Below are positions 2,441 to 62,489 of a stretch of 64,000 bases of DNA, piece after piece. A model generated the notes under the pieces. It was not told the DNA's origin. It searched no databases and saw nothing but the letters and a program-made list of their open reading frames with translations. The translations under genes were made by a program, and so were the position numbers. The stretch comes from Terebella lapidaria (taxonomy: Eukaryota; Annelida; Polychaeta; Terebellida; Terebellidae): contig OX424568.1 of assembly GCA_949152475.1 (NCBI GenBank), positions 19,133,667 to 19,197,666 of the forward strand, given 5' to 3'. Position 1 is the first letter of the stretch. Each line of letters begins with the position of its first letter.

Positions 2441-2465
2441 TAAAAATAATGTTTGTAAACATTTT

Positions 2466-2480
2466 ATACGCATTTTCCAG
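2466..2480 (+). promoter_or_regulatory. Possible 3' splice acceptor upstream of the kinase ORF
   Basis: A pyrimidine-rich stretch ends in TTTTCCAG at 2480, 23 bases before the first in-frame ATG at 2504. It would suit a 5' UTR intron acceptor, leaving the whole coding sequence in one exon. No transcript evidence is available, so this is inference from sequence only. Confidence 0.3.
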
Positions 2481-2503
2481 AATTTCGAGGTTTTACATTC
2501 GTC

Positions 2504-14600: not shown

Positions 14601-14943
14601 AGATCTCTTTTTCACGAATTAGGCGTTGATTGAGTGTTCACGTGACGAATCTCCTCCACGAATCATCTGTGTGACCCATGCAAACTCTTTCAGTGCTACG
14701 TTTTTAAACCGTGGAATACAAATATCACGTTATGGTCCTGTAATGTTTGTGAAACAGAGCCACTGTTAGTTAACATAAGCCACTTTCCACATGTATGCGA
14801 ATGTCATAGAAACCCAAGTACATTGCACATGAAAAAGAAATCGGTATTTAAATCTAATCTGTCAAACAAACATGTTTTGTTGCGAAGTATTAAAAGGATA
14901 ACAACTTTCTGTAATTTCTCTAGTAGTGATTATCGTGTTTTTT
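14601..14943. other. Spacer up to the array, nothing recognised
   Basis: Single-copy AT-rich sequence leading to the abrupt start of the repeat array at the first ACTTGAC hairpin. A 107-codon plus-strand frame (14823-15146) runs into the array only because the array's TTTG tract is open in that frame. Confidence 0.5.
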
Positions 14944-15023
14944 ACTTGACGAAATCAAAGATTTTGTCAAGTATGTTGATCGGTTCCGTTTGTTACTTGA
15001 CGAAATCAAAGATTTTGTCAAGT
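14944..15023 (+). other. Doubled header hairpin at the array start
   Basis: Two copies of a 29-base stem-loop lie at 14944-14972 and 14995-15023. Left arm ACTTGACGAAATC, loop AAA, right arm GATTTTGTCAAGT, with 13 paired positions including one G-T. Each is followed by TATGTTGATCGGTTCCG and then TTTG. The same doubling recurs at 16364/16427, 17787/17850, 19210/19273, 25417/25468 and 27351/27402. Hairpin-plus-F-hairpin pairs occur at 34232/34283, 37981/38044 and 60147/60198. Confidence 0.95.
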
Positions 15024-20534: not shown

Positions 20535-22003
20535 AGCAACCGGCCCCATTCCCGGTTTTTAGCAGTAATTTCTCTCACGATCAAAGGTCCTGTGCATGCA
20601 CCAGATATTTATGATAACAGAATCGCTCCCATCATAAGCAAAATTGCATGCTTCACTCTTTTGTCTTTTCGCACTCTAGCGTTCACAATTTTTGCGCTAG
20701 CATCCCCAAACTTCTTTGATGTACAGCTATCAGCCCTGTTACGGGACTGCACGTTTTTGAAAAAAAATCGGTTCATTGGTGACGTCACCAAAAATTCCTA
20801 AAAACTCGAAAAATCCCTATCTCTCATCATTAGCGAATTTTCAAAAATTCACACAGGAGTCATATTTAGTCCGATACCTCTGAAATTTGACACATCGATA
20901 AATGATGATATCGTCCATCAAACTGCGAAGTTTTGTTTGGATCTATCCAACGTCAATGACGTCACGACGAAAAACGTCAATTTTTGAAATGGGGCTATAT
21001 CTCAAAAAGTATTCGTCGTACAGAGAAGCGGATTGCACCACTGGAAAGCTCGTTGAATTCTGGTTTAGGAGGGTGCTGTCCGATACTTTTCCGCCATAAT
21101 AGATTTTTCGCTATGACGTCATAAACGTAAGGCCGGTCATATCAATTTTTCGACTTTTCAGCGAACATTCAAACCTACACTGTGCACTCAAATTTGAAGG
21201 TATTGGACTGTGATTATGAGAACATATGTGGCATATTATTACCCAGTCATATACCGAGTTTCAACATGCCACGTGCAACGTCAATGACGTCATGACGTAA
21301 AACGTCAATTTTCAAAATGGAGCTATATATTGAAAAGTATTCGTCGTACAGAGAAGCGCATCGCACCACTGGAAAGCTCGTTGAATTCTGGTTTAGGACG
21401 GTCCTGTTAGATACTTTTCTGCTATAATAGATTTTTCGCTATGACGTCATAAACGTAAGGCCAGTCATATAAATTTTTCGATATTTCAGCAAACATTCAA
21501 ACCTACACCGTACACTCAAATTTGAAGGTATTGGACTGTGAATATGAGACTATATGTGGCATATTAATACCCAGTCATATACCGAGTTTCAGCACGCTAC
21601 AGGCAACGTCAATGACGTCATGACGTATTACGTCAATTTTCAAAATGGAGCTATATATTGAAAAGTATTTGTCGTACAGAGAAGCGGATTGAACCACTGC
21701 AGAGCTCGTTGAATCCTGGTTTGAGAGAGAGCTGTCCGAGACTTTTCCGCCATGATGGATTTTTCGCTATGACGTCATAAACGTAAGGCCGGTAATATAA
21801 ATTTTTCGACATTCCAGCAAACATTCAAACCTACACCGTGAACTCAAATTTTAAGGTATTGGACTGAATGTCTATGCCTAAATAGCATGTTGTCTAATAT
21901 AACCTGCAAAATTTCAGAGTCACATCTCAGAGGTCAAGGTCAGGATCAGTTCAGTAAACATTTCGTCAAGCTTACGACCTATGGTCGCTGGTTTGTATGT
22001 TTG
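20535..22003 (+). repeat. Module B1: three 328 bp tandem repeats and a 3' hairpin
   Basis: Module B continues from a core body after CACTTTATATCA and has no ACTTGAC header of its own. A lead-in (20535-20890) carries a degenerate CTCTAGCGTTCACA box. Three tandem repeats follow, anchored at AACGTCAATGACGTCA (near 20950, 21279 and 21605). Each has two or three TGACGTCA-like palindromes, a GTCGTACAGAGAAGCG block and CGCTATGACGTCATAAACG. It ends with CGTCAAG, the hairpin CGACC-TAT-GGTCG (21975-21987) and TTTG. It closely matches B2. Confidence 0.93.
21975..21987. other. 3' CCTATGG hairpin of B1
   Basis: The stem CGACC/GGTCG has a TAT loop. The equivalent hairpin is TTGGCC-TAT-GGCCGA in F and GCCC-TAT-GGGC in C. 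The third pair from the base changes as A-T, G-C and C-G, so pairing is kept while the sequence changes. Confidence 0.8.
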
Positions 22004-24098
22004 TTACTTGCCGGAATCTACGATTTCGGCAAGTATGTTGGTCTGTTTGTGGGTTTGTTGGTTTGTTTGTTTGTTTGCACTCTAACGTCCACATTTCTTA
22101 CTCGAATCTTTCCAAAGTCGGTGTGCATATTCTGTAGGATAATGGGCAGGTCAAGTTCGATTTTGGTGATTCTAGGTCAAAGGTCAAGGTCAAGGTCATG
22201 CAAAACGTCGAAAACACATAAGTGACCATAACTCTGGTTCTAATCGTCGTAGAGACTTCAAATCAAGTGCATATCATAGATAAACTCGAGTTCTATCTTC
22301 TGTGACCTTGACCTTGACCTTTGACTTTGACCTTGAGAAGTTCGCCTGAGGTCGAAGTCAAGGTCAAATACGAAGGTCGGCGCATCATATCGAGTAGTAT
22401 ATCGTTGGAAAGGTCTTGAGCCCCTGATTCCAGTGATATCTTATTTTTGGCGCTGCGACGTAAACTGACGTCACAATGACGTCATAAACGTAAAAAATCC
22501 GATATTTTAAAGGGTCATAACATCGTCGATAGTGTATGGAATCCCTTGAAATTTGATATGCACTTTGACAGCATTGACCTCTACGAACTGAAGTACAAAG
22601 GTCAAAGGTCAAGGTCAAGGTCATCGAAATCCCAGAAAAACACGTTTCCGGTAATAACATCCGTTTGAATCATCGTAGGTTCATGAAATTTGAACCATAT
22701 CATTCAGAAGAGGTATGGCAATCAGAAGTATATGTTAATTTTATGATTGACCTTGAACTTGGTCTGAAAAATAAAGTCACATGAGGAAAACTTCAAGGTC
22801 AAATTTCAAAACTACATGAAACCTATCAAGTAGTATATCAAATGGAAGGCCTTTATACCCTGACACACACTATCCCATTAATATTCAGGTATGACGTTTA
22901 TTGACGTCACAGTGACGTCATCAACGTAAATTTTTTGAAATTTCAAAATGCCATAGTGTCCACAATTCTTGTTCGATTGTGATGAAACTATTCAAGTATA
23001 ATCTATATTCCCATGCACAGGCAATGTATAATTTTCGTGACCCAAGATCAAAGGTCGAGGTCAAGGTCAAGGAAAAGGTCAATATCACACAAATGACCAT
23101 AACTTCGGAACTAATCGTCGTAGAGAGTTCAGACTAGGAGCATATTGTAGTATGTCAAAAGGCCTTTCTTATGTGACCTTGAATGTGACCATTGACTCTG
23201 ACACCTGAGGTCAAAGTTGACCTCAAAAATGACCTTGACCTCGACCTTTCGCGAAAATAACGAGTAGTAGCTCGTTTGGAAGGTTTTCAAAAGTCCTTTC
23301 CAAATATGTTGTTATTTTTGGTATCGGACGTCAATTGACGTCATGATGACGTCAAACGTGATTTCAGACTGACATTCAGGCCTGTTGAGTGTCAGGTGTG
23401 CAAACTTATGAAATATACTGCAGATCTAACACCTGCAAACGATGTGGGTTCGGCCTGTGGTGCTCTCTGTCAATTTTTAGCTCAATCAATATATCCATTT
23501 TGACGTAATTGACGTTTTTGTGGTGAAAAATCGATAAAATTTCAAAGGAAACTCATTATCTGAAGATCTTGTCCGGTGATAATATAACATATATAAACAC
23601 GATTTTAACATGCATATTAAAAAAATCCACTTACAGTAAGTTTGCAATATAGAATTGACGACAAATGACGTCTTAATTACGTCAAAATCACATAAATGGC
23701 CATAACTTCGAAACTAGGACCATAATGCAGCATATTAAAAAGCCTTCCTTATTTGACTTTGAATATGACATTTGACCTTGTTCTTGAGACTTTGCGATGA
23801 GCTCAATGTCGAGGTCAAGTACGAAGTTCAGCCCACCATATCGAGTAGTATACCATTGGAAAGTTCTTGGTCTCTGGAGTCCAGTGATGTCTTATTTTTG
23901 GTACTATGACGTTCAATGAGGTAACAATGATAGTATGAGTAGTTTGTGTGGTAACGTGAAGTGAAATGAAGTAAAGTAAGTAAGTAAACGTAGTAAGTAG
24001 GGAAGAAAGTTTCGTCAATTTGTTCAAATCCATATGTCATGTCATTGGCATATGACATTGATTTTGGTTCCGGCAAGTGTGTGCCCTATGGGCTCTCG
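22004..24098 (+). repeat. Module C: diverged 2.1 kb element
   Basis: C begins with hairpin ACTTGCCGGAATC-TAC-GATTTCGGCAAGT (22006-22034) and ends with CGGCAAG, GCCC-TAT-GGGC (24083-24093) and TTTG. Its header box is CTCTAACGTCCACA. The first half (to about 22780) is a diverged core body. The second half (about 22790-23560) is homologous to the second half of D units, sharing TTTCGCGAAAATA and GAGTAGTARCTCGTTTG. A TAAG-rich patch (23965-24000) is unique. It is the most diverged module and probably the oldest. Confidence 0.88.
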
Positions 24099-33300: not shown

Positions 33301-34231
33301 GATATCTCATTTTTGGTGCTGCGACGTAAACTGACGTCACAATGACGTATTAAACGTCAATAATCCGAAATTTCAAAGGGTCATAATATCGTCAATAGTG
33401 TATGGAATCCCTTGAAATTTGATATGCATTTTGACAGCATTGACCTCTACGAACTCAAGTACAAAAGTCAAAGGTCAAGGTCAAGGTCATCGAAATCCCA
33501 GAAAAACACGTTTTCTGTAATAGCATCCGTTTGAATCATCGTGGGCTCATGAAATGTGAACCATGTCATTTAGAAGGGGTATGGCAATCAGATAAATATG
33601 TCAATTCCATGATTGACCTCGAACTTTGTCTATAATCTGACAAAACTTAATCAGAATCCCATGAGTTTTTGGGATTTTACAGATATTTTTTATGTTTTCA
33701 TGGCTCCAATTTTCACACATTTACTGAACATTAATTTTAAAGAATTTCCTTGCAGTCAGTTGCAGTGTTATTTCTAGTTTATGGTCCACTTTTCACATTT
33801 GGAATAACTTGAAAACTCGCCGAGATATCAAAGTAGAAAGAGCAGTGGGGTGAATTTGATTCTCAATCCGTTCAGATGCTAATAAGCTGTAGAAACGATT
33901 ACCCCCTGTGGACATGTCCCCTTCTAAATATACACACTCGGTTGCGAAGTAGTACAGTATATCATATATGTATCCAAGTGCACATCTCAAACAACATTTC
34001 TTTTGTTTTTTGACTCAGAGGTGTCCAACTGGTATGATAAAGTCTAAAACTCATGTCTAAATACAGTCTGGGTCAAGCAACAGGCCACTTTATATCAGAA
34101 ATTTTGGGCATGACGAACAGGGGTTTGTGAGCACCGGGTTTGTGAGCATTGTGAGCACTGTTACAGGTTTATAGTACATGTAGTGCATTGCCTAAGGCCC
34201 AATAGCTTGTATATATGCACCAGATATTATT
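27351..34231 (+). repeat. Array E: five core units, period 1366 bp
   Basis: A remnant hairpin at 27351 is followed by units starting at 27402, 28768, 30134, 31500 and 32866. Spacing is exactly 1366 each time. Units differ by single bases, for example CAATCCATTC near 28405 against CAATCCGTTC elsewhere, and ACAGGTCATAG near 32950 against ACAGGCCATAG. Header tract is TATG plus four TTTG. Homogeneity points to very recent amplification, ongoing conversion or assembly duplication. Confidence 0.97.
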
Positions 34232-34280
34232 ACTTGACGAAATCAAAGATTTTGTCAAGTATGTTGATCGGTTCCGTTTG
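34232..34280 (+). repeat. Header of the sixth E unit, split by F1
   Basis: The hairpin (34232-34260), linker and first GTTTG of an E header. The rest of the same header (TTTGTATG plus four TTTG, then TGTGCG) resumes at 36664, after F1. Confidence 0.9.
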
Positions 34281-34571
34281 TTACTTGACGAAATTAAATT
34301 TCGTCAAGTATGTTGGTCAGTTGAGTTTGTCTGTTTGTCTGTTTGTTTGTTTGTGTGCACTCTACAGGTCACACTTTTGGTCGTATCGTCATGAAACTTC
34401 ACCAGAAGGTGGACAATCAATGTCGGACCAAGTGGTAAACTTTTAGGAGGTCAAGGTCAAAAATTGAGGTCAAGGTCATAGAAAAGGTCAAAATCGAAAA
34501 ATCGCGATAACTTCGCTTCTAATTGAGATTATTTTTTCTTGTTATTTTTATATTTTTCTATAGTCAATTCT

Positions 34572-34640
34572 GCATCATCTGATGCATGTCCGATGGTCGT
34601 ACGACCAAAATTCTCGATTTTCGGTCCAGGTCGAAAATTT
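34572..34640 (+). other. Triplet of hairpins in an F sub-repeat
   Basis: Three stem-loops lie close together: GCATCA-TC-TGATGC (34572-34585), the 14 bp palindrome TGGTCGTACGACCA (34594-34607) and ATTTTCG/CGAAAAT around an 8-base loop (about 34618-34640). The set recurs in each 324 bp sub-repeat of F1-F3 and, more diverged, in F4. Changes in the first stem tend to preserve pairing. Confidence 0.75.
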
Positions 34641-35780
34641 GGGGGTCAAGAATTTAGGTTTTTCCTGTCTCACAATATTCAAAACCATATTATAGAGCCA
34701 GGTTCCAATATATGTTGCTGATTTTTACTCAGGAGTTGTGCCTTATCACACAGAACAAGATCCTGAAGTTTCAGAGCTCAGGGTCGAGAATTAGAGTTAA
34801 GGTCATAGTAAAGGTAAAAATCGAAAAATCGTGATAACTCTGCTTCTAATCAAGATTGTTTTTTCTGTGTATTTTTATATTTTTCTATGGTCAATTCCGC
34901 ATCAAATGATGTATGTCTGATGGTCGTATGACCTAAACTCTCGATTTTCGGTCCTGGTCGAAAATTTGGGGGTCATGAACTTAGGTCTTGCTTGTCTCAA
35001 TTTTCAAAACCCTATTGTAGAGCCAGGTTCCAATATATGTTGCTGATTTTCACTCAGGAGTTGTGCCATATCACGCAGAACAAGATCCTGAAGTTTCAGA
35101 GCTCAGGGTCAAGGATTAGAGTTAAGGTCATAGTAAAGGTCAAAATCGAAAAATTGAGATAACTTCGCTTCTAATCAAGATTATTTTTTCTGTGTATTTT
35201 TATATTTTTCTATGGTCAATTCCGCATCACATGATGCATGTCTGATGGTCGTATGACCTGAACTCTCGATTTTCGGTCCAGGTCGAAAATTTGGGGGTCA
35301 TGAACTTAGGTTTTGCTTGTCTCAATTTTCAAAACCCTATTGTAGAGCCAGCTTCCAATATATGCTTCTGATTTTTACTCCAGAGTTGTGCCATATCACG
35401 CAGAACATGACTGTGAAGTTGTAGGGCTCAAGGTCAAGAATTACAGTTAAGGTCATAGTAAAGGTCAAAATTGAAAAATCGTGATAACTCCGCTTGTAAT
35501 CATGATTATTTTTTCTGATTATTTTTGTATTTTTCTATGGTCAAATCCGCATCATATGATACATGTCCGATGGTCGTATGACCAAAACTCTGGATTTTCG
35601 GTCCAGGTCGAAAATTTGGGGGTCATGAATTTAGGTTTTTCCTGTCTCACAATATACAAAACCACATTATAGAGCCAGGTTCCAATATATATATTGCCGG
35701 ATTTTACTCAGGAGTTGTGCCTGATCACGCAGAATAAGATTGTGAAGTTGTAGAACTCAAGGTCACGAGTTTTCCCGATC

Positions 35781-35825
35781 GAATTATGCACGCTGCCAGT
35801 CCAATGTACAGCCATGGCATAATTC
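35781..35825. other. 9 bp inverted repeat upstream of the tRNA-like segment
   Basis: GAATTATGC (35781-35789) pairs with GCATAATTC (35817-35825). F2 and F3 carry GAATTCTGC in the left arm, one mismatch from the right arm. It sits about 70 bp before the tRNA-like A box. Confidence 0.5.
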
Positions 35826-35889
35826 AGTGTTTATCCTGAGCGAAGTCTCTCCTACACACTATACTTTACACGTGTTGAGCTTCATTGAA

Positions 35890-35972
35890 CAGAATGGCGC
35901 AGTCAGTAGAGGCGTTAGGTTTGTGTGCGAGGGGTCAGTGGTTCAATTCTCACTGTTGACTGATTTTTTTTC
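35890..35972 (+). ncRNA. tRNA-like Pol III promoter segment in F1
   Basis: The A box TGGCGCAGTCAG starts at 35895 and the B box GGTTCAATTCT at 35940. The spacing is 45 bases, as in real tRNA genes, and a run of T follows at about 35964. A D-arm-like stem (GCGC with GCGT) can form, but the acceptor arm and a proper T stem do not. It is best read as a tRNA-derived promoter or SINE head. Homologous copies are in F2 and F3. Whether it is transcribed is unknown. Confidence 0.6.
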
Positions 35973-36645
35973 CTTCTAAAATTCAATTCCAAATGACTTT
36001 TTCTGTTTCTGAGTGGTCTGGTAAGCATCCCAAACCTGCCATGCTTTATGTAATTCTATTGTTTCGAATTATAATGATCACCTTTGAAGGAAAAAACACT
36101 GTTCCACGAATAGCGACAAACTATTTTATCGGGCTTTCTAGTGGTATCATCAAAATCTAGTTTGTTCTTTATATTTAAAGTTACAAGCCGCTTTAAATTC
36201 AGCATTACGGCCACAACTGTGAATGATCTGTGGTATTAGCTGCTAACAAATGCATGACAAAAGGCGTGTACCAGATGATATGTCTGCTTCATATGAATCG
36301 CCACATGTCTAAGCCTCTCTATTTGTTTTGTTTACTTGTTGTCAATGTAATTTCATATTTGTGCGGGAATATTTGCTGTTTGTTATTCGCTCATTTTTAG
36401 GCTATCGATATTTGTTTTTGGATTTTTGTAATTTTGATATATTTTAGGTTTTTTAGTAGTGGCATCATCAAAACTTTGTGCCGTTAGCATGGTTAGAGGT
36501 AATATATTATGTTGATACATACGCAAACTAGATGTTTCAAGTGGTTCAGTTTCCAATGCTATATGTTGTCAGGGGATGCCATAAATGTGTAAATTATGAG
36601 TAAATGTTTTGAATGTAAACAAATGTGTAGATTTTTCGTCAAGTG

Positions 36646-36660
36646 TTGGCCTATGGCCGA
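36646..36660. other. 3' CCTATGG hairpin of F1
   Basis: TTGGCC-TAT-GGCCGA, preceded by CGTCAAGTG and followed by T6. It is repeated at the ends of F2 (40635-40649), F4 (51916-51930) and F3 (62472-62486). It marks the right-hand end of the element, next to the TTTG target. Confidence 0.8.
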
Positions 36661-36663
36661 TTT

Positions 36664-37980
36664 TTTGTATGTTTGTTTGTTTGTTTGTGTGCGCTCTACA
36701 GGCCATAGTTCTTATTGGAAATTCATGAAATTTGGTAGAAAGGTTTTAGGCTGAAAAAGAAAGGTTCCTAGTTCTTTGTCAAGCTCAAGGTCAAATAACA
36801 AGGTCAAGGTCACGCAAAACGTCGAAAACACATAAGTGCTCATGACTCCAGTTCTAATCGTCGTAGAGACTTCAAATCAAGTGCATATTGTAGATATGTT
36901 CGAGTTCTATCTTCCGTGACCTTGACCTTGACCTTTGACCTTGACCTTGAGAAGTTCGCCTGAGGTCGAAGTCAAGGTCAAAATACGAAGGTCGGCGCAG
37001 TATATCGAGTAGTATATCGTTGGAAAGGTCTTGAGCTCCTGATTCCAGTGATATCTCATTTTTGGTGCTGCGACGTAAACTGACGTCACAATGACGTATT
37101 AAACGTCAATAATCCGAAATTTCAAAGGGTCATAATATCGTCAATAGTGTATGGAATCCCTTGAAATTTGATATGCATTTTGACAGCATTGACCTCTACG
37201 AACTCAAGTACAAAAGTCAAAGGTCAAGGTCAAGGTCATCGAAATCCCAGAAAAACACGTTTTCTGTAATAGCATCCGTTTGAATCATCGTGGGCTCATG
37301 AAATGTGAACCATGTCATTTAGAAGGGGTATGGCAATCAGATAAATATGTCAATTCCATGATTGACCTCGAACTTTGTCTATAATCTGACAAAACTTAAT
37401 CAGAATCCCATGAGTTTTTGGGATTTTACAGATATTTTTTATGTTTTCATGGCTCCAATTTTCACACATTTACTGAACATTAATTTTAAAGAATTTCCTT
37501 GCAGTCAGTTGCAGTGTTATTTCTAGTTTATGGTCCACTTTTCACATTTGGAATAACTTGAAAACTCGCCGAGATATCAAAGTAGAAAGAGCAGTGGGGT
37601 GAATTTGATTCTCAATCCGTTCAGATGCTAATAAGCTGTAGAAACGATTACCCCCTGTGGACATGTCCCCTTCTAAATATACACACTCGGTTGCGAAGTA
37701 GTACAGTATATCATATATGTATCCAAGTGCACATCTCAAACAACATTTCTTTTGTTTTTTGACTCAGAGGTGTCCAACTGGTATGATAAAGTCTAAAACT
37801 CATGTCTAAATACAGTCTGGGTCAAGCAACAGGCCACTTTATATCAGAAATTTTGGGCATGACGAACAGGGGTTTGTGAGCACCGGGTTTGTGAGCATTG
37901 TGAGCACTGTTACAGGTTTATAGTACATGTAGTGCATTGCCTAAGGCCCAATAGCTTGTATATATGCACCAGATATTATT
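36664..37980 (+). repeat. Sixth E core unit body
   Basis: Continuation of the E unit whose header was split by F1. The body matches units 1-5 and ends at the hairpin at 37981. Confidence 0.96.
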
Positions 37981-38041: not shown

Positions 38042-39647
38042 TTACTTGACGAAATTAAATTTCGTCAAGTATGTTGGTCAGTTGAGTTTGTCTGTTTGTC
38101 TGTTTGTTTGTTTGTGTGCACTCTACAGGTCACAATTTTGGTCGTATCGTCATGAAACTTCACCAGAAGGTGGACAATCAATTTCGTACCAAGTGGTAAA
38201 CTTTTAGGAGGTCAAGGTCAAAAATGGAGGTCAAGGTCATAGAAAAGGACAAAATCGAAAAATCGCGATAACTTCGCTTCTAATTGAGATTATTTTTTTT
38301 GGGTATTTTTATATTTTTCTATGGTCAATTCTGCATCATCTGATGCATGTCCGATGGTCGTACGACCAAAATTCCCGATTTTCGGTCCAGGTCGAAAATT
38401 TGGGGGTCAAGAATTTAGATTTTTCTTGTCTCACAATATTCAAATTCATATTATAGAGCCAGGTTCCAATATATGTTGCTGATTTTTACTCCGGAGTTGT
38501 GCCTCATCACGCAGAACAAGATCCTGAAGTTTCAGAGCTCAGGGTCAAGGATTAGAGTTAAGGTCATAGTAAAGGTCAAAATCGAAAAATCGTGATAACT
38601 CCGCTTCTAATCAAGATTATTTTTTCTGTGTATTTTTATATTTTTCTATGGTGAATTCCGCATCATATGATGCATGTCCGATGGTCGTATGACCAAAACT
38701 CTGGATTTTCGGTCCAGGTCGAAAATTTGGGGGTCATGAACTTAGGTCTTGCTTGTCTCAATTTTCAAAACCCTATTGTATAGCCAGGATCCAATATATG
38801 TTTCTGATTTTTACTCAGGAGTTGTGCCTTCTCACGCAGAACATGACTGTGAAGTTATAGGGCTCAAGGTCAAGAATTACAGTTAAGGTCATAGTAAAGG
38901 TCAAAATTGAAAAATCGTGATAACTCCGCTTCTAATCATGATTATTTTTCTGATTATTTTTGTATTTTTCTATGGTCAAATCCGCATCATATGATACATG
39001 TCCGATGGTCGTATGACCAAAACTCTGGATTTTCGGTCCAGGTCGAAAATTTGGGGGTCATGAACTTAGGTCTTGCTTGTCTCAATTTTCAAAACCCTAT
39101 TGTAGAGCCAGGATCCAATATATGTTTCTGATTTTTACTCAGGAGTTGTGCCTTCTCACGCAGAACATGACTGTGAAGTTATAGGGCTCAAGGTCAAGAA
39201 TTACAGTTAAGGTCATAGTAAAGGTAAAAATTGAAAAATCGTGATAACTCCGCTTGTAATCATGATTATTTTTTCTGATTATTTTTGTATTTTTCTATGG
39301 TCAAATCCGCATCATATGATACATGTCCGATGGTCGTATGACCAAAACTCTGGATTTTCGGTCCAGGTCGAATATTTGGGGGTCATGAATTTAGGTGTTT
39401 CCTGTCTCATAATATTCAAAACCACATTATAGAGCCAGGTTCCAATATATATTGCCGGATTTTACTCAGGAGTTGTGCCTGATCACGCAGAATAAGATTG
39501 TGAAGTTGTAGAACTCAAGGTCACGAGTTTTCCCGATCGAATTCTGCACGCTGCCAGTCCAATGTACAGCCATGGCATAATTCAGTGTTTATCCTGAGCG
39601 AAGTTTCTCCTACGCACTATACTTTACATGAGTTGAGTTTCAATGAA

Positions 39648-39732
39648 CAGAATGGCGCAGTCAGTAGAGGCGTTAGGTATGTGTGCGGGGGGTCAGCGGT
39701 TCGATTCTTACTGTTGACTGATTTTTTTTTTT
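39648..39732 (+). ncRNA. tRNA-like Pol III promoter segment in F2
   Basis: The A box starts at 39653 and the B box GGTTCGATTCT at 39698, again 45 bases apart, followed by T12. The B box here is closer to consensus than that of F1. The acceptor stem is not preserved. Confidence 0.6.
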
Positions 39733-40192
39733 CTTCTAAAATTCAATTCCAAATGACTTTTTCTGTTTCTGAGTGGTCTTGTAAGCATCCCAAACCTGCC
39801 ATGCTTTATGTAATTATATTGTTTCGAATTATAATGATCACTTTTGAAGGAAAAAACACTGTTCCACGAATAGCGACAAACTATTTTATCGGGCTTTCTA
39901 GTGGTATCATCAAAATCTAGTTTGTTCTTTATATTTAAAGTTACAAGCCGCTTTAAATTCAGCATTACGGCCACAACTGTGAATGATCTGTGGTATTAGC
40001 TGCTAACAAATGCATGACAAAAGGCGTGTACCAGATGATATGTCTGCTTCATATGATGCATGTGGGATTGGGGGTCTGGTAAGTGCAGATTAAACACTGT
40101 ATCGTGTCATTTTACAGGGTCTCATTGGTTTCATTATGATCGAACAATGCATGTTTTTGTCATAACGCGTTTGTGTTAACTCCATTCTTCAT

Positions 40193-40284
40193 AGCCTTAA
40201 AATATGACCTAATTACAACTGTTTGTTAATATAAAAACATTGATAAAAAGAAGACAAGCAATTATTAGGTCATATTTTAGGGCT
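40193..40284. repeat. 92 bp palindromic segment in F2
   Basis: Arms of 21 bases, starting AGCCTTAAAATATGACC (40193-40213) and ending GGTCATATTTTAGGGCT (40264-40284), differ by one base. They flank 50 AT-rich bases. An identical-looking copy is in F3 at 62027-62118. F1 lacks it as part of a larger missing block. It may be a small MITE-like hairpin carried by F. Confidence 0.7.
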
Positions 40285-40652
40285 GTGCAATCGCCACATG
40301 TCTAAGCCTCTCTATTTGTTTTGTTTACTTGTTGTCAATGTAATTTCATATTTGTGCGGGAATATTTGATGGTTGTTATTCGCTCATTTTTAGGCTATCG
40401 ATATTTGTTTTTGGATTTTTGTAATTTTGATATATTTTAGGTTTTTTAGTAGTGGCATCATCAAAATTTTGTGCCGTTAGCATGGTTAGAGGTATATCAT
40501 GTTGATATATACGCAAACTAGATGTTTCAAATGGTTCAGTTTCCAATGCTATATGTTGTCATGGGATGCCATAAATGTGTAAATAATGAGTAAATGTTTT
40601 GAATGTAAACAAATGTGTAGATTTTCGTCAAGTGTTGGCCTATGGCCGATTT

Positions 40653-43600
40653 TTTGTATGTTTGTTTGTTTGTTTGTTTGTTTGTGTGCCCTCTACAGGC
40701 CACAGTTCTCATTGGAAATTCATGAAATTTAGTAGAAATTTTCTAGGCTGAAATAGGAAGGTCCCAGACTCTTTGTTAAGCTCAAGGTCAAATAACAAGG
40801 TCAAGGTCACGCAAAACGACGAAAACACATAAGTGCTCATAACTCCAGTTCTAATCGTCGTAGAGACTTCAAATCAAGTGCATATTGTAGATATACTCGA
40901 GTTCTATCTTCCGTGACCTTGACCTTGACCTTTGACCTTGACCTTGAGAAGTTCGCCTGAGGTCGAATATTTGACCTTGGAGGTCACCTCCTCCGATTTT
41001 CGATCTGATGCTTGGAAACGATGTGGGACCGGTCCCTCATGGTCAATATCAATTTTTAGCGCGATCGGTCAATTCGTTATGACGTAATTGACGTTTCTAT
41101 GGCAACGAAATCAGTCCCATTATAAGCGAAATTGCATGTTTCAAGCTGTCCATGCTGATAAAAGCGTCAATAATGTGCTTAAAAATCTAATGATAAACTC
41201 GTTTATAGTCAAGGATAAGTTCTTGTGTTCCAAAAAATTTCAAGGTCAAAGGTCGAAAGCCAAGGTCAATATTGACCTGCAAGTGAAAACCATGTAGGTC
41301 CCTACATCTCAGGAACTAAGAAAGATAGAAACGCGGAAGTAAATCCAAAGTATTGCACTCACTTACTCTATCAACTTTTGTATTTACACCTAAGGCGTAT
41401 GGCCGATAGCCTTTGCAAGCGCCTGAGGTCGAAGTTGACCCAAAAAATGACCTTGACCTTGACCTTTCGCGAAAATATCGAGTAGTAACTCGTTTGAAAG
41501 GTCTTCGGAAGTAGTTTCGATATATGTTCTTATTTTTGGAATCTGACGTCATATGACGTCATAATGACGTGAAACGTGATTTTATCATACTTCATTTGAT
41601 TGTTTACATGAGATGCATAAACCATTCATGATTATTGTTGATCCGGTGCTCTGGGAAGTATTGGGGATACCTACTGAAGCTATTTGACAAATATCAGTTC
41701 AATAATTGCAGTGGTAATGGCCTAATTGACCTTTTTATGACGGAAAATTGGAGAAAATTTCATTTGTTTGTCTTTTCATACTCATAGCGTCCACAGTTGT
41801 TGCTTGATTCTTTTCAAATTTGATGTAGATATTCTGTAGGATAATGGCTCTTGACAGAATGATTTTGAGAAAAATAGCTCTATTGATGACGTCACAAAAG
41901 ATCCAAATCCTATCAGTCTTTGGGTCTTTCAAATACATTTTATGTGTCAATGGTTCCAATTTTCAAAAATTTACTGAACTTTCAATTACGAAGCTTTTCA
42001 TGCAGTCAGTGGCAGTGTTAATTCTACTTTATGCTCCACTTTTCACATTTGGAATAAATTGAAAACTCGCCGAGATATCAAAGTAGAAAGAGCAGTGGGG
42101 TGAATCTGATTCTCAATCCGTTCACACAACAATAAGCTGCAGAAACGATTACCCCCTGTGGACATGTCCCCTTCTAAATATACACACTCGGTTGAGCAGT
42201 AGTACAGTATATCATATATGTATCCAAGTGCACATCTCAAACAACAAAACAATTCCTTTGTTTTCAGACTCAGAGGTGTCCAACTGATATAATAAAGGCT
42301 AAAACTCATGTCTAAATACAGTCTGGGTCAAGCCACAGGCCACTTTATATCAGAAATTTTGGGCATGACGAACAGGGGTTTGTGAGCACTGGGTTCGTGA
42401 GCATTGTGAGCACTGTTACAGGTTCATAGTACATGTAGGGCATTGCCTAAGGCCCAATAGCTTGTTTATATGCACCGGATATTATTACTTGACGAAATCA
42501 AAGATTTTGTCAAGTATGTTGATCGGTTCCGTTTGTTTGTATGTTTGTTTGTTTGTTTGTTTGTTTGTGTGCCCTCTACAGGCCACAGTTCTCATTGGAA
42601 ATTCATGAAATTTAGTAGAAATTTTCTAGGCTGAAATAGGAAGGTCCCAGACTCTTTGTTAAGCTCAAGGTCAAATAACAAGGTCAAGGTCACGCAAAAC
42701 GACGAAAACACATAAGTGCTCATAACTCCAGTTCTAATCGTCGTAGAGACTTCAAATCAAGTGCATATTGTAGATATACTCGAGTTCTATCTTCCGTGAC
42801 CTTGACCTTGACCTTTGACCTTGACCTTGAGAAGTTCGCCTGAGGTCGAATATTTGACCTTGGAGGTCACCTCCTCCGATTTTCGATCTGATGCTTGGAA
42901 ACGATGTGGGACCGGTCCCTCATGGTCAATATCAATTTTTAGCGCGATCGGTCAATTCGTTATGACGTAATTGACGTTTCTATGGCAACGAAATCAGTCC
43001 CATTATAAGCGAAATTGCATGTTTCAAGCTGTCCATGCTGATAAAAGCGTCAATAATGTGCTTAAAAATCTAATGATAAACTCGTTTATAGTCAAGGATA
43101 AGTTCTTGTGTTCCAAAAAATTTCAAGGTCAAAGGTCGAAAGCCAAGGTCAATATTGACCTGCAAGTGAAAACCATGTAGGTCCCTACATCTCAGGAACT
43201 AAGAAAGATAGAAACGCGGAAGTAAATCCAAAGTATTGCACTCACTTAGTCTATCAACTTTTGTATTTACACCTAAGGCGTATGGCCGATAGCCTTTGCA
43301 AGCGCCTGAGGTCGAAGTTGACCCAAAAAATGACCTTGACCTTGACCTTTCGCGAAAATATCGAGTAGTAACTCGTTTGAAAGGTCTTCGGAAGTAGTTT
43401 CGATATATGTTCTTATTTTTGGAATCTGACGTCATATGACGTCATAATGACGTGAAACGTGATTTTATCATACTTCATTTGATTGTTTACATGAGATGCA
43501 TAAACCATTCATGATTATTGTTGATCCGGTGCTCTGGGAAGTATTGGGGATACCTACTGAAGCTATTTGACAAATATCAGTTCAATAATTGCAGTGGTAA

Positions 43601-48004: not shown

Positions 48005-49459
48005 CTATTCAGGACGACGAACCGGCGGATGTATCAGTCCCATTCCCGGTTTTTAGCGGTAATTTGTCTCAGGACCAAAGGTCCTGTGCATGCACCAGAT
48101 ATCCGTTTGTTACTTGTTTGTTTGTCACCTCTCTAGCGGCCACAGTTTTTGTGCTAACATCTCAAAATTTTTTTGATGGATAGGTATTCGCCCAAGGACG
48201 GAACAGCACGTTTTTGAAATAATTCGGTTCATTGATGACGTCACCAAAAATTCCTAAAAACTCGAAAAATCCCTATCTCTCATCATTAGCGAATTTTCAA
48301 AAATTCACACAGGAGTCATATTTAGTGCGATACCTCTGAAATTTGACACATTGATGAATGATGATATTGTGCATCAAACCGCGAAGTTTTGTTTGGATCC
48401 ATCGAACGTCAATGACGTCACGACGTAAAACGTCAATTTTTGAAATGGGGCTATATCTCAAAAAGTATTCGTCGTACAGAGAAGCGGATTGCACCACTGG
48501 AAAGCTCGTTGAATTCTGGTTTAGGACGGTGCTGTCCGATACTTTTCCGCCATGATAGATTTTTCGCTATGACGTCATAAACGTAAGGCCGGTCATATCA
48601 ATTTTTCGACTTTTCAGCGAACATTCAAACCTACACTGTGCACTCAAATTTGAAGGTATTGGACTGTGATTATGAGAGCATATGTGGCATATTATTACCC
48701 AGTCATATACCGAGTTTTAACATGCCACGTGCAACGTCAATGACGTCATGACGTAAAACGTCAATTTTTAAAATGGAGCTATATATTGAAAAGTATTCGT
48801 CGTACAGAGAAGCGCATCACACCACTGGAAAGCTCGTTGAATTCTGGTTTAGGAGAGTGCTGTTAGATACTTTTCTGCTATAATAGATTTTTCGCTATGA
48901 CGTCATAAACGTAAGGCCAGTCATATAAATCTTTTGATATTTCAGCAAACATTCAAACCTACACCGTGCACTCAAAGTTGAAGGTATTGGACTGTGATTA
49001 TGAGAGTATATGTGGCATATTAATACCCAGTCATATACCGAGTTTCAACACGCTACGGGCAACGTCAATGTCGTCATGACGTATAACGTCAATTTTCAAA
49101 ATGGAGCTATATATTGAAAAGTATTCGTCGTACAGAGAAGCGGATTGAACCACTGGAGAGCTCGTTGAATTCTGGTTTGAGAGGGAGCTGTCCGAGACTT
49201 TTCCGCCACGATAGATTTTTCGCTATGACGTCATAAACGTAAGGCCGGTCATATAAATTTTTCGACATTCCAGCAAACATTCAAACCTACACCGTGAACT
49301 CAAATTTGGAGGTATTGGACTGAATGTCTATGCCTAAATAGCATGTTGTCTAATATAACCTGCAAAATTTCAGGGTCACATCTCAGAGGTTAAGGTCAGG
49401 ATCAGTTCAGTAATCATTTCGTCAAGCTTACGACCTATGGTCGCTGGTTTGTATGTTTG
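48005..49459 (+). repeat. Module B2
   Basis: A second copy of module B, joined to a D unit at the same body position at which B1 joins an A unit. The three tandem repeats are anchored near 48407, 48733 and 49061. It ends with CGTCAAG, CGACC-TAT-GGTCG (49431-49443) and TTTG. Its lead-in carries a TTTGTTACTTGTTTGTTTG tract and CTCTAGCGGCCACAG, less decayed than in B1. Confidence 0.93.
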
Positions 49460-51933
49460 TTACTTGACGAAATTAAATTTCGTCAAGTATGTTGGTCAGT
49501 TGCGTTTGTCTGTCTGTCTGTCTGTCTGTTTGTTTGTTAGCGCTCTACAGGTCACAATTTTGATCGTAGAGTGCTGAAAATTTGTCAGAAGTTGTGCAGT
49601 CAATACTCGACCAAGTGATTAACTTTTGGGAGGTCAAGGTCAAAAATTGAGGTCAAGGTCAAGCAAAAGGTCAAAATCGAAAAATCGCGATAACTCCGTT
49701 TTTAATTAATGTTATTTTTTCTAGCTATTTTTATATTTTTCTATGGTCAATTCCGCATCATATGATGCATGCCCGATGGTCGTACGACCAAAACTCCCGA
49801 TTTTCGGTCCAGGTCGAAAATTTGGGGGTCACGAATTTAGGCTTTTTTCTACCTCGCAATATTCAAAACCATATTATAGAGCAAATTCCCGATATATGTT
49901 GCTGATTTTCACTCAGAAGTTGTGCCTTATCACACAAAACACGATTGTGAAGTTATAGGACTCAAGGTCAAGAATTAGAGTTAAGGTCATAGTAAAGGTC
50001 AAAATCGAAAAATTGCAATAACTTGGCTTTTGATCAAAATTAATTTTTCTAAACATTTTTGTATTTTTATTTGGTCAATTCGACATCAGCTGACGTATGT
50101 CCGATGGTTGTACGACCAAAACTCCCGATTATCGCCCATGGTTGAACATTTGGGGGTTTTCAGATCATTTGTATTTTGTGCAATATTCAAACCGTTATTG
50201 TGGAGTCAGAATCCGATAGAAGTTGCTGATTTTTAATCAGTAGGTGTGTCTTATCATACTGAACATATGTGTAAAGATGTAGGACTCAATATCAAGAATT
50301 ACGGTTAAAGTCATAGTAAAGGTCAAAATCGAAAAATCGCAGTAACTCCGTTTCTATTCAATGTTATTTTTTCTGAGTATTTTTATATTTTTTTATGGTC
50401 AATTCCGCGCCCTGCGGTGCATGCCCGATGGTCGTACGACCAAAACTCCCGATTTTCGGTCCAGGTCGAAAATTTGAGGGTCATGATTTTATGGTTTCAT
50501 GTCTCGCAACCTTCAACCCCATATTGCGAGGCCAATTTCTGATATGGGTTATTGATTTTTACTCAGGAGTTGTGCCTTATCAAATTGAACAAATCTGTGG
50601 AGTTTCTTAACTCAAGGTTGAAAATTAAGGTCAAGGTCATGTAAAAGGTCAAAATCGAAAAATCGCAATAACTCCACTTTTGATCAACATTAATTTTTGT
50701 CAGTATTTTTGTATTTTTATATGGTTAATTCGGCGTCAAATGGTGTATGTGCGATGGTCGTACGACCAAAAGTCCCGATTATCGCCCGGTGCCGAAAATC
50801 TGGGGGTCATGTGCAAGTTGCATAGTGGTAGCCCTAGTGTAGTGGCCGCAAAATTACCTCACATAAGTTGCCAATTTATAGGAGATATGAAATGTTTTAT
50901 GCAGATTTGAATACACAAATGTGAAACGTGGACTTTCTTGCCCTAATTCTCCAATTGAGTTGACTGTGAAAGTTGGTTATCAATACTAGTTTGGGTTATA
51001 AAGTTACAGTTATTTTGGATCGATTTCTTCGTGCAGTCATGCCGACATGCATGCGGTCATACATGTACAGTAAATGTTGTTCTCCATGGGGAAGGGGAAT
51101 ATGGCAATTTATTGTATGATGGCTCGGTGGCCGAGTGGTTCCAGCACTCGCTCTGTAACACGTAGGCTTTTGACTCTGCGAGTTCGAATCTACCTGCTTT
51201 TAAATATTTTTTTTTTGCTCTTTATTTTTTTCAAGAATATCCAGTACCATTATAATCTATTATAGTGGTTTTATCCAAGAACTTTTTGCAATTTGTTTTG
51301 ATATATTATGAATATACACTGTTGAATGATCATTTGGTACTAATATGGCGTGCAAAAATTATCGTTGCCTCTGTCATATAATACCAGTATGGCATGCAAA
51401 AACGGCTATCACGATCTGCTTGAACTCATTAGATAGTTCTCCGAAGATGCAGCATCATGATATGAAAGTTACCAAGTTGTAGTAACGAACATTTATAGCA
51501 GTGTTGTATTCTATAATTTTTCTTATATTGACATCATCAAAATTTTGTGCTGTTAGTAGTATATATTATGTTGATACACACATCGATTGAATGTTTTGAA
51601 TGAGTCAGTCTCAAATGGCTGGGTCTTGCTCAGGAGACGTCATAAAGATTCAATATGTATGTCTGCTCAGGAGTTGTGCATTATTAATTCTAACAAATTT
51701 GTGAAAATTCAGAATTCAAGGGCCAAGGTCACTGTGAAAATGAAGCAACTCTTGTCTAATTTTAAAATTGTGAATTCTTCTGCTGGGTGATGCTCAGGAG
51801 GTGTCTTAAAAGTGCCAATTTCTAATGCTAGAAGTTGTTCAGTATATCTTTTCAATGTGTAATTAATGAGTAAATGTTTTAAATGTAAACAAATGTTTAG
51901 TTATTTCGTCAAGTGTTGGCCTATGGCCGATTT
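49460..51933 (+). mobile_element. Element F4, an older relative of F1-F3
   Basis: It starts with the same 27-base perfect hairpin (49462-49488) and ends with the same CGTCAAGTG plus TTGGCC-TAT-GGCCGA (51916-51930). The four 324 bp sub-repeats are much more diverged from each other than in F1-F3. The stretch 50820-51900 is only partly homologous to F1's 3' region, through CATCATCAAAATTTTGTGC, ATTATGTTGATAC and AATGAGTAAATGTTTT. It carries a different tRNA-like segment (51119-51200). Confidence 0.85.
51119..51200 (+). ncRNA. tRNA-like segment (Leu/Ser-like A box) in F4
   Basis: The A box TGGCCGAGTGG (51128-51138) matches type II (Leu/Ser) tRNAs. The B box AGTTCGAATCT starts at 51181, and the 53-base spacing would allow a variable arm. 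A T-rich tract follows at about 51206. Acceptor and T stems do not pair properly, so it is a tRNA-derived relic or SINE head rather than a working tRNA. Confidence 0.6.
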
Positions 51934-54900
51934 TTTGTTTGTTTGTTTGTTTGTTTGTGTGCGCTCTACAGGCCACAGTTCTCATTGGAAATTCATGAAA
52001 TCTGGTAGAAAGTTTCTGGGCTGAAAAAGAAAGGTCGCTAGTTCTTTGTTAAGCTCAAGGTCAAATAACAAGGTCAAGGTCACGCAAAACGTCGAAAACA
52101 CATAAGTGCTCATTATTCCAGTTCTAATCATCGTAGAGACTTCAAATCAAGTTCATATTGTAGATATACTCGAATTCTGTCTTCTGTGACCATGACCTTG
52201 ACATTTGACCTTGACCTTGAGAAGTATGCCATGAGGTGAATATCAAGGTCAAGTACGAAGGTCAGCGCACTATATCGAGTAGTACATTGTTGGAAAGGTC
52301 TTGAGTCCCTGATTCCAGTGATATCTCATTTTTGGCGCTGCGACATAAACTGACGTCATAATGACGTCATAAACGTCAAAAATCCGAAATTTCAAAGGGC
52401 CATAACACCGTCAATAGTGAATGGAATCCTTTGAAATTTGATATGCACTTTGAAAGCATTGACTTCTACGAATTTAAGTGCAAAGGTCAAAGGTCAAGGT
52501 CAAGGTCATCGAAATCCCAGAAAAACACGTTTCCGGTAATAACATCTGTTTGAATCATTGTGGGCTCATGAAATTTGAACCATGTCATTTAGAAGGGGTA
52601 TGGCAATCAGATAAATATGTCAATTCCATGATTTACCTCGAACTTTGTCTATAATCTGACAAAACTTAATCAGAATCCCATGAGTTTTTGGGATTTTACA
52701 GATATTTTTTTATGTTTTCATGGCTCCAATTTTCACACATTTACTGAACATTAATTTTAAAGAATTTCCTTGCAGTCAGTTGCAGTGTTATTTCTAGTTT
52801 ATGGTCCACTTTTCACATTTGGAATAACTTGAAAACTCGCCGAGATATCAAAGTAGAAAGAGCAGTGGGGTGAATTTGATTCTCAATCCGTTCAGATGCT
52901 AATAAGCTGTAGAAACGATTACCCCCTGTGGACATGTCCCCTTCTAAATATACACACTCGGTTGCGAAGTAGTACAGTATATCATATATGTATCCAAGTG
53001 CACATCTCAAACAACATTTCTTTTGTTTTTTGACTCAGAGGTGTCCAATTGGTATGATAAAGTCTAAAACTCATGTCTAAATACAGTCTGGGTCAAGCGA
53101 CAGGCCACTTTATATCACAACTTTTGGGCATGACGAACAGGGGTTTGTGAGCACCAGGTTTGTGAGCATTGTGAGCACTGTTACAGGTTTATAGTACATG
53201 TAGGGCATTGCCTAAGGCCCAATAGCTTGTATATATGCACCGGATATTATTACTTGACGAAATCAAAGATTTTGTCAAGTATGTTGATCGGTTCCGTTTG
53301 TTTGTATGTTTGTTTGTTTGTTTGTTTGTTTGTTTGTGTGCGCTCTACAGGCCACAGTTCTCATTGGAAATTCATGAAATCTGGTAGAAAGTTTCTGGGC
53401 TGAAAAAGAAAGGTCGCTAGTTCTTTGTTAAGCTCAAGGTCAAATAACAAGGTCAAGGTCACGCAAAACGTCGAAAACACATAAGTGCTCATTATTCCAG
53501 TTCTAATCATCGTAGAGACTTCAAATCAAGTTCATATTGTAGATATACTCGAATTCTGTCTTCTGTGACCATGACCTTGACATTTGACCTTGACCTTGAG
53601 AAGTATGCCATGAGGTGAATATCAAGGTCAAGTACGAAGGTCAGCGCACTATATCGAGTAGTACATTGTTGGAAAGGTCTTGAGTCCCTGATTCCAGTGA
53701 TATCTCATTTTTGGCGCTGCGACATAAACTGACGTCATAATGACGTCATAAACGTCAAAAATCCGAAATTTCAAAGGGCCATAACACCGTCAATAGTGAA
53801 TGGAATCCTTTGAAATTTGATATGCACTTTGAAAGCATTGACTTCTACGAATTTAAGTGCAAAGGTCAAAGGTCAAGGTCAAGGTCATCGAAATCCCAGA
53901 AAAACACGTTTCCGGTAATAACATCTGTTTGAATCATTGTGGGCTCATGAAATTTGAACCATGTCATTTAGAAGGGGTATGGCAATCAGATAAATATGTC
54001 AATTCCATGATTTACCTCGAACTTTGTCTATAATCTGACAAAACTTAATCAGAATCCCATGAGTTTTTGGGATTTTACAGATATTTTTTTATGTTTTCAT
54101 GGCTCCAATTTTCACACATTTACTGAACATTAATTTTAAAGAATTTCCTTGCAGTCAGTTGCAGTGTTATTTCTAGTTTATGGTCCACTTTTCACATTTG
54201 GAATAACTTGAAAACTCGCCGAGATATCAAAGTAGAAAGAGCAGTGGGGTGAATTTGATTCTCAATCCGTTCAGATGCTAATAAGCTGTAGAAACGATTA
54301 CCCCCTGTGGACATGTCCCCTTCTAAATATACACACTCGGTTGCGAAGTAGTACAGTATATCATATATGTATCCAAGTGCACATCTCAAACAACATTTCT
54401 TTTGTTTTTTGACTCAGAGGTGTCCAATTGGTATGATAAAGTCTAAAACTCATGTCTAAATACAGTCTGGGTCAAGCGACAGGCCACTTTATATCACAAC
54501 TTTTGGGCATGACGAACAGGGGTTTGTGAGCACCAGGTTTGTGAGCATTGTGAGCACTGTTACAGGTTTATAGTACATGTAGGGCATTGCCTAAGGCCCA
54601 ATAGCTTGTATATATGCACCGGATATTATTACTTGACGAAATCAAAGATTTTGTCAAGTATGTTGATCGGTTCCGTTTGTTTGTATGTTTGTTTGTTTGT
54701 TTGTTTGTTTGTTTGTGTGCGCTCTACAGGCCACAGTTCTCATTGGAAATTCATGAAATCTGGTAGAAAGTTTCTGGGCTGAAAAAGAAAGGTCGCTAGT
54801 TCTTTGTTAAGCTCAAGGTCAAATAACAAGGTCAAGGTCACGCAAAACGTCGAAAACACATAAGTGCTCATTATTCCAGTTCTAATCATCGTAGAGACTT

Positions 54901-60195: not shown

Positions 60196-61484
60196 TTACT
60201 TGACGAAATTAAATTTCGTCAAGTATGTTGGTCAGTTGAGTTTATCTGTTTGTGTGTTTGTTTGTGTGTTTGTTTGTGTGCACTCTACAGGTCACAATTT
60301 TGGTCGTATCGTCATGAAACTTCACCAGAAGGTGGACAATCAATTTCGGACCAAGTGGTAAACTTTTAGGAGGTCAAGGTCAAAAATTGAGGTCAAGGTC
60401 ATAGAAAAGGTCAAAATCGAAAAATCGCGATAACTTCGCTTCTAATTGAGATTATTTTTTCTGGGTATTTTTTATATTTTCTATGGTCAATTCTGCATCA
60501 TCTGATGCATGTCCGATGGTCGTACGACCAAAATTCCCGATTTTCGGTCCAGGTCGAAAATTTGGGGGTCAAGAATTTAGGTTTTTCCTGTCTCACAATA
60601 TTCAAAATCATATTATAGAGCCAGGTTCCAATATATGTTGCTGATTTTTACTCAGGAGTTGTGCCTTATCACGCAGAAGAAGATCCTGACGTTTCGGAGC
60701 TCAGGGTCAAGGATTAGAGTTAAGGTCATAGTAAAGGTCAAAATCGAAAAATCGTGATAACTCCGCTTCTAATCAAGATTATTTTTTCTGTGTATTTTTC
60801 TATTTTTCTATGGTCAATTCCGCATCACACGATGCATGTCTGATGGTCGTATGACCTAAACTCTCGATTTTCGGTCCCGGTCGAAAATTTGGGGGTCATG
60901 AACTTAGGTCTTGCTTGTCTCAATTTTCAAAACCCTATTGTAGAGCCAGGATCCAATGTATGTTTCTAGTTTTTACTCAGGAGTTGTGCCTTCTCACGCA
61001 GAACATGACTGTGAAGTTATAGGGCTCAAGGTCAAGAATTACAGTTAAGGTCATAGTAAAGGTCAAAATTGAAAAATCGTGATAACTCTGCTTGTAATCA
61101 TGATTATTTTTTCTGATTATTTTTGTATTTTTCTATGGTCAAATCCGCATCATATGATACATGTCCGATGGTCGTATGACCAAAACTCTGGATTTTCGGT
61201 CCAGGTCGAATATTTGGGGTCATGAATTTAGGTTTTTCCTGTCTCACAATATTCAAAACCACATTATAGAGCCAGGTTCCAATATCTATTGCCGGATTTT
61301 ACTCAGGAGTTGTGCCTGATCACGCAGAATAAGATTGTGAAGTTGTAGAACTCAAGGTCACGAGTTTTCCCGATCGAATTCTGCACGCTGCCAGTCCAAT
61401 GTACAGCCATGGCATAATTCTGTGTTTATCCTGAGCGAAGTCTCTCCTACGCACTATACTTTACACGTGTTGAATTTCAATGAA

Positions 61485-61567
61485 GAGAATGGCGCAGTCA
61501 GTAGATGTGTTAGGTGTGTGTGCGAGGGGTCAGTGGTTCGATTCTCACTGTTGACGATTTTTTTTTC
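61485..61567 (+). ncRNA. tRNA-like Pol III promoter segment in F3
   Basis: The A box starts at 61490 and the B box GGTTCGATTCT at 61535, with 45-base spacing and a T9-10 run just after. The interval between the boxes differs from F1 and F2 at several bases, while the boxes and their spacing are kept. Confidence 0.6.
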
Positions 61568-62026
61568 TTCTAAAATTCTATTCCAAATGACTTTTTCTGT
61601 TTCTGAGTGGTCTTGGAAGCATCCCAAACCTGCCATGCTTTATGTAATTCTATTGTTTCGAATTATAATGATCACCTTTGAAGGAAAAAACACTGTTCCA
61701 CGAAGAGCGACAAACTATTTTATCGGGCTTTCTAGTGGTATCATCAAAATCTAGTTTGTTCTTTATATTTAAAGTTACAAGCCGCTTTAAATTCAGCATT
61801 ACGGCCACAACTGTGAATGATCTGTGGTATTAGCTGCTAACAAATGCATGACAAAAGGCGTGTACCAGATGATATGTCTGCTTCATATGATGCATGTGGA
61901 ATTGGGGGTCTGGTAAGTCCAGATTAAACACTGTATCGTGTCATTTTACAGGGTCTCATTGGTTTCATTATGATCGAACAATGCATGTTTTTGTCATAAC
62001 GCGTTTGTGTTAACTCCATTCTTCAT

Positions 62027-62118
62027 AGCCTTAAAATATGACCTAATTACAACTGTTTGTTAATATAAAAACATTGATAAAAAGAAGACAAGCAATTATT
62101 AGGTCATATTTTAGGGCT
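62027..62118. repeat. 92 bp palindromic segment in F3
   Basis: The same 21-base arms and spacer as at 40193-40284 in F2. Confidence 0.7.
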
Positions 62119-62489
62119 GTGCAATCGCCACATGTCTAAGCCTCTCTATTTGTTTTGTTTACTTGTTGTCAATGTAATTTCATATCTGTGCGGGAATATT
62201 TGCTGTTTGTTATTCGCTCATTTTTAGGCTATCGATATTTGTTTTTGGATTTTTGTAATTTTGATATATTTTAGGTTTTTTAGTAGTGGCATCATCAAAA
62301 TTTTGTGCCGTTAGCATGGTTAGAGGTAATATATTATGTTGATACATACGCAAACTAGATGTTTCAAATGGTTCAGTTTCCAATGCTATATGTTGTCAGG
62401 GGATGCCATAAATGTGTAAATAATGAGTAAATGTTTTGAATGTAAACAAATGTGTAGATTTTCGTCAAGTGTTGGCCTATGGCCGATTT

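Follow-up and report, generated by a model that had tools for sequence, protein, structure and literature searches.

Putative Helentron-derived HINEs nested in the 5′-microsatellites of sibling elements in a Terebella lapidaria repeat array

HINE and DINE-1 elements are documented by Cg_HINE from the Pacific oyster (PMC7492417), HINE-Mo and DINE-1 (PMC4067079) and the elements of 12 flies (PMC2374699). The available portions of these reports, and of PMC5148889 and PMC4344730, describe HINE anatomy, insertion at TT or T-rich targets with no target duplication, the clustering of elements, their self-insertion and the presence of more than one 5′ end, and give Rep, helicase and endonuclease together as the make-up of a Helentron (PMC4067079). 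The element studied here, designated F, shares with HINE and DINE-1 elements, as they are presented there, a 5′ subTIR with a complementary inverted repeat, a left-module microsatellite, central tandem repeats, a 3′ subTIR followed by a palindrome, a TT or T-rich target and the absence of a target duplication. HINE and DINE-1 elements are, however, described in these portions as occupying T-rich sites and repetitive regions generally, whereas F insertion is focal, into the microsatellite behind the 5′ hairpin of a sibling element. FoHeli from Fusarium likewise shows self-insertion and nesting, and combines several 5′ ends with a single 3′ end; the portion available (PMC5148889) gives a number of examples, whereas such nesting is the most frequent setting among the 5′ ends sampled in F and involves six families. 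MuTAnT (PMC4486113) likewise has a microsatellite target but is Mutator-like, with TA microsatellites as targets, and self-nesting is not reported in the part of that paper available.

The whole 64,000-nucleotide stretch analysed, here called the window, is C15:19133667-19197666 of a 761.6 Mb genome, and all loci were read from this one assembly. From 14942 to 64000, and continuing beyond the window end, there is an array of header-bearing units of four types, A (1,423 bp), B (1,379 bp), E (1,366 bp) and G (1,883 bp), with F and X elements nested within it; the array and the F, X, D-type and E-unit features placed in the window below are on the + strand. Most units start with a hairpin (TACTTGACGAAAT...), typically followed by a TTTG tract, CTCTACAGG and the body. 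The A and G arrays are terminated by D-type 3′ ends (TTTCGTCAAG, palindrome GACCTATGGTC) at 21961..21991 and 49417..49447, respectively. Element X (22005..24098; subTIRs CTTGCCGGAA / TTCCGGCAAG, palindrome GCCCTATGGGC) lies after a D-type 3′ end in the same kind of tract, as does F4 (49461..51934), an older relative of F, ~81% identical to F1 over 1.37 kb, which adjoins the D-type 3′ end of another element within a TTTG tract and is not behind a hairpin.

F1, a 2,383-bp putative HINE within an E unit, occupies 34282..36664 or, equivalently, 34281-36663, as the boundaries have a one-base T ambiguity. Joining the F1 flanks gives GGTTCC-GTTTG-TTTG-TATG-(TTTG)4-TGTGCG. The left part of the interrupted unit (34230..34281; hairpin and GTTTGT) and the right part (36665..37978; the remaining microsatellite and body) rejoin as a 1,366-bp E unit that has no mismatches with the unit at 31498-32863, and one with its direct neighbour at 32864-34229. 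F3 (60197..62490) is a second clean insertion, in this case into a B unit, and its excision leaves a 1,379-bp unit with no mismatches to the two adjoining B units. F1 and F3 differ in length and are 94.3% identical over ~1.5 kb, 91.8% over the 1.2-kb part that bears the repeats and 98.6% in the final 369 bp. As they have diverged from each other, and yet the units that they split are the same as their neighbours, we infer that the two insertions were independent. An earlier note on this DNA had described F1 as a clean insertion into the TTTG tract of an array unit, with the header hairpin to the left and the body to the right, and had taken F for a discrete unit that entered an existing repeat. 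These descriptions hold, to within the one-base T ambiguity, F being a discrete mobile unit in the tract of a relative, and the observation of nested insertion is stronger than was first claimed.

Unfilled sites with the predicted junctions are present elsewhere in the genome, as the same note had anticipated. The joined flanks of the F copy at locus L003 match 163 of 163 bases at nine unfilled loci, and all 40 full-length matches to this empty-site query, the 40 scored from 2,356 first-look candidates, have 96-100% identity. The intact E-type header without F has 264 exact occurrences. The note had further suggested that any target duplication is hidden within the TTTG tract; there is none at F1 or F3, where the unit length is exactly restored, or at L003, given its 163/163 agreement with unfilled sites. 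Short target duplications may be present at L002, where the left flank ends in TTTAT and the right flank begins with TTAT, and at L017 (TTAT and TAT, respectively), as a short repeat is found on both sides.

Not all insertions are clean. F2 (38043..40653) has a left flank in which an E header is cut after TATG-TTTG and a right flank with a G-type tract that restarts at TTTG-TATG, so that the flanking unit types differ and the registers overlap. A deletion that later removed DNA between repeated tracts would account for these flanks. They also resemble the product expected if TTTG tracts exchanged F through homologous recombination or gene conversion, or if F circles reintegrated through the tract, and TTTG-like tracts are indeed present on both sides of many copies. 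The same F ends are, however, found at sites that are not TTTG (L017, L020 and six left flanks), tandem F-F junctions have no TTTG, and the host tract is exactly retained at F1, F3 and L003, and we regard such spread by recombination as improbable.

The F1 sequence begins with a subTIR and inverted repeat that form a hairpin (34282..34310; DNA fold of -11.9 kcal/mol, z -6.4), followed by its own TTTG/TCTG microsatellite (34326..34354), four tandem repeats of 325 bp identified by TRF (34447..35765) and a 3′ end (36634..36664) with the order TTTCGTCAAG-TGTT-GGCCTATGGCC-GATTTT. A left-module microsatellite is a feature of HINEs, and central tandem repeats are an optional one. The 3′ end is fixed as GATTTT by the F copies that have a C on the right (4 of 36). 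SubTIRs are present at both ends of F, as in HINEs and Helentrons, and the F pair, CTTGACGAAA / TTTCGTCAAG, and the X pair change in both members together. In F the core that matched exactly measures 10 bp, and PMC4067079, in the part available, sets at least 11 bp of identical subTIR as the rule within a family. The 3′ palindrome, also a HINE feature, is GGCCTATGGCC in F and has different sequences in D and X, with arms that co-vary among the three; its fold, taken by itself, is weak (z -0.9 to -2.4). As in HINEs, coding capacity is low, the only frame of at least 90 codons in F1 being one that spans its 5′ end. The target is T-rich and not strictly TT: among the 36 complete copies the flanking base is T on the left in all 36 and, on the right, T in 30, C in 4 and A in 2. 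There is also an autonomous candidate partner with common termini, a Helentron on contig C6 described below. By these sequence features, F belongs with the HINEs, which are non-autonomous Helentrons, and not in an undescribed class as had been proposed; the accompanying suggestion, that Helentron-derived elements are the nearest comparison, is borne out by the match of the F ends to those of the C6 Helentron. Pattern scans with the header found no matches in the viral and genome collections searched.

Two further observations concern F sequences in the window. F2 and F3 contain similar-looking stop-to-stop frames (39504-39920 and 61341-61754) of 138 and 137 codons, respectively, and F1 has none as long. 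The region at ~35895-35960 of F1 resembles, by eye, the head of a tRNA-derived SINE. This candidate was rejected, as no Rfam tRNA match was obtained at E values up to 1 and its single match was at chance level; ARAGORN, and Rfam at gathering scores, gave no match within the window.

The C6 locus opens with an E-type header and then two F headers, the latter of which carries the F left module. A Rep ORF on the minus strand and an F-like 3′ end follow, and beyond these the remainder of an F tract leads into a body of F type, together with its own 3′ end, and finally into a B-type body. The left module is 97.3% (369 bp) and 96.0% (1,226 bp) identical to F1, ending at F position 1923. At the F-like 3′ end, the subTIR and palindrome are identical to those of F, and the last 160 bp are ~81% identical. 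The ORF was analysed in two stop-free parts that overlap, an N-terminal part of 784 codons with DUF6570, OTU and STPRs matches, and a 1,432-codon part with matches to Helitron_like_N (8.3e-32), PIF1 (4.1e-21) and Exo_endo_phos (1.8e-8), so that Rep, helicase and endonuclease are combined in one predicted protein. We read this locus as a probable Helentron within an F within a B/E-type unit and, from the order and ends of the pieces in which it was read, the ~19 kb from the second F header to the F-like 3′ end appear to be one element. At least 150 Helitron_like_N loci were scored in the genome, many with open frames of more than 2,000 codons. On contigs C1 and C2, 7 of 22 such loci have an exact F header no more than 25 kb away, whereas only 1.3% of the sequence of these contigs is that close to one. 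In 22 of 23 header-ORF pairs, which are clustered and so not independent, the header and ORF have opposite orientations. Close to the F copy at L004, locus L101 (C6:12466500-12472000) has pieces of a Pif1-like helicase and, on the opposite strand, long open frames.

A search of the genome with F1 gave at least 140 matches. Full-length copies of the F1 type, four at 100% and one at 99.96% identity, are on C15 (the window copy), C5, C4, C1 and C6. Their hosts are E-class units in the window and at L001, an X-type header at L002 and, at L003 and L004, two members of a family whose hairpin is of the CCCTCGCCCC type. L003 and L004 are only 78-95% alike in their right flanks, compared in pieces of at least 200 bp, which argues that these were separate events, and recent transposition is the plain reading of five near-identical copies. 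The 36 distinct complete copies likewise have many different flanks and not, as the earlier note had also considered, the same flanks at every locus. The homogeneous arrays and fixed periods might suggest that F is a component of an ordinary higher-order satellite, amplified by unequal exchange. F is, however, dispersed over many contigs with many flanks, and intact E-type headers without F are present; as a component found only within its array, F is contradicted by the dispersed copies, and we give this origin very little credence. It is similarly hard to believe that the nesting results from mis-joined repeats: near-identical arrays are difficult to assemble and the loci are known from the assembly alone, but the boundaries are identical at many loci, including L017, L020 and L021, which are outside recognised elements. 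F copies also occur in tandem, and at L009-L010 (C4:20158500-20172000) three are arranged head-to-tail, 3′ end fused to 5′ end, within one K-type tract.

To determine where F 5′ ends are located, we examined 97 of the 100 sites listed among the 450 exact F headers in the genome, all on contigs C1-C3 (the three listed sites absent from the count are all on C3); loci L001-L020, having been selected by similarity to F, were left out. There are 52 that start 5-47 bp downstream of an element's hairpin motif, 28 that directly abut the 3′ end of an F, perhaps through tandem copying rather than insertion, 11 that are positioned 0-15 bp behind a matched 3′-end motif (one of F type, with TTTG between) and 6 with no recognised element. 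The hosts of the 52 header cases belong to six families, namely F (28, some of which, being F headers behind F headers, could be header duplications by slippage), E (7), Y (CCCTCGCCCC-type; 7), N (GGCAAAA-type; 5), X (4) and K (GTTGACGAAT-type; 1), as classified by our own regular expressions, which may miss diverged headers. When flanks with no more than 7 mismatches in 70 were merged, 57 clusters remained, 33 behind headers, 8 tandem, 10 after a 3′ end and 6 with none of these. The host header is from a family other than F in 24 of the 52 cases, and in 20 of the 33 clusters. At six sites (L036, L037, L040, L041, L042 and L086) the F header is just behind the 3′ end, GATTGCTTCA, of an apparent GGCAAAA-type element.

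The complete copies provide a view of both flanks. In 15 of the 36, there is a header on the left and a body on the right, and their classes agree in all 15 (E 5, F 5, X 2, Y 2, K 1); these body classes are broad, and one of the five E-class pairs is F2, in which the finer types are not the same. Of the remaining 21 copies, 11 are tandem (including two that are in a header with a tandem copy next to them), 6 lie behind a 3′ end, 1 is in a header with another header next to it, 2 have no recognised element and 1 is mixed. In the six units measured, the tract holds 3-8% of the T[TC] sites and 4-12% of the TT sites of a unit, and 92-97% of the T[TC] sites are in element bodies. If F entered any T/Y site, with no target choice by an enzyme, and copies in repeats survived because they are harmless there, survivors would be expected across these bodies. 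Sites without a recognised element do exist (6 of 97, and also L017 and L020), and a general preference for T-rich sites is the rule in the available portions of PMC7492417 and PMC4067079. An insertion into a body would, however, have been classed as without a recognised element, and as there are at most 6 of these among the 97, with flanks that match no other flank examined, a T/Y preference alone does not explain 33 distinct header matches. Survival in such a safe harbour thus seems to us an unlikely explanation. F may instead prefer TTTG tracts of any kind rather than sibling headers. (TTTG)4 words number 8,362 in the 761.6 Mb, elements and non-element DNA taken together. Against this wider preference, a TTTG tract does not terminate the left flank at any of the six sites without a recognised element.

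The host tract is reversed in none of 124 distinct header left flanks, F always having the orientation of its host, and this would fit joining on the T-rich strand. It is this focal entry, across families, into the tract behind a sibling 5′ hairpin that is unusual, and not the class of the element. We found no such preference for a sibling's 5′ microsatellite in the portions available of the open-licence Helitron and HINE literature; the target habit would be new, and the HINE class, self-insertion and multiple 5′ ends were already known. Two further systems could be compared in this respect. Helitron-like elements in Lepidoptera reportedly disrupt (GAAA)n microsatellites (Coates 2010), which could bear on the target habit of F and, to judge from that title, is likewise a case of a rolling-circle element within a microsatellite. 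Micron is also said to have a microsatellite as its target.

Together, these observations make it very likely that F1 is a HINE that was mobilised in trans by a Helentron; the tract behind a sibling hairpin would be the preferred entry point, and the resulting composites would build arrays. The Rep-helicase-endonuclease of the Helentron would act in trans to copy F from the 5′ hairpin to the 3′ palindrome, and the copy would then be joined, presumably also by Rep in trans, to a T on its left and usually to a T or C on its right, with no target duplication where an empty site can be checked. The tract may be preferred as an easily opened T-rich strand adjoining a hairpin that is perhaps bound by the Rep protein. 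Hosts with quite different hairpins (CCCTCGCCCC) have been entered, which makes it improbable that a single subTIR sequence is recognised; choice of the host by shape or by the tract is likelier. Each element would bring with it the landing pad for the next, generating nested, multi-headed composites, stacked in one another like Russian dolls, and tandem copying of these composites would build arrays. We propose only tentatively, as somewhat less probable than not, the more general model in which the microsatellite is a self-carried landing pad and the machinery prefers a T-rich tract beside a sibling hairpin of any sequence, so that elements home into the 5′ ends of their siblings, gain foreign 5′ ends, travel as composites and give rise to satellite-like arrays. 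To our knowledge, there is no explanation for why Helentron-type elements retain a tetranucleotide microsatellite behind the 5′ hairpin, and we know of none for the way in which they give rise to satellite arrays; were the tract an entry point for siblings, one answer would serve for both. If true, this would be a group of transposons that targets itself, sparing genes while building clusters.

Several other features of the window were observed. Double headers, in which a hairpin and tract are followed by a second hairpin, are present at 14942-14993, 16362-16425, 25415-25466 and 27349-27400. They occur where the array starts, within A units and where one unit type gives way to another, and resemble the multiple 5′ ends of Fusarium Helitrons. 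In the part of the window that is not array, a 442-codon open frame (2459-3787) has weak matches to protein kinases that are below the Pfam cut-offs. The units have a common tail that ends in GATATTAT immediately 5′ of the hairpin (16280-16361 and the equivalent positions in other units), and this may be 5′-flanking DNA captured from an original insertion.
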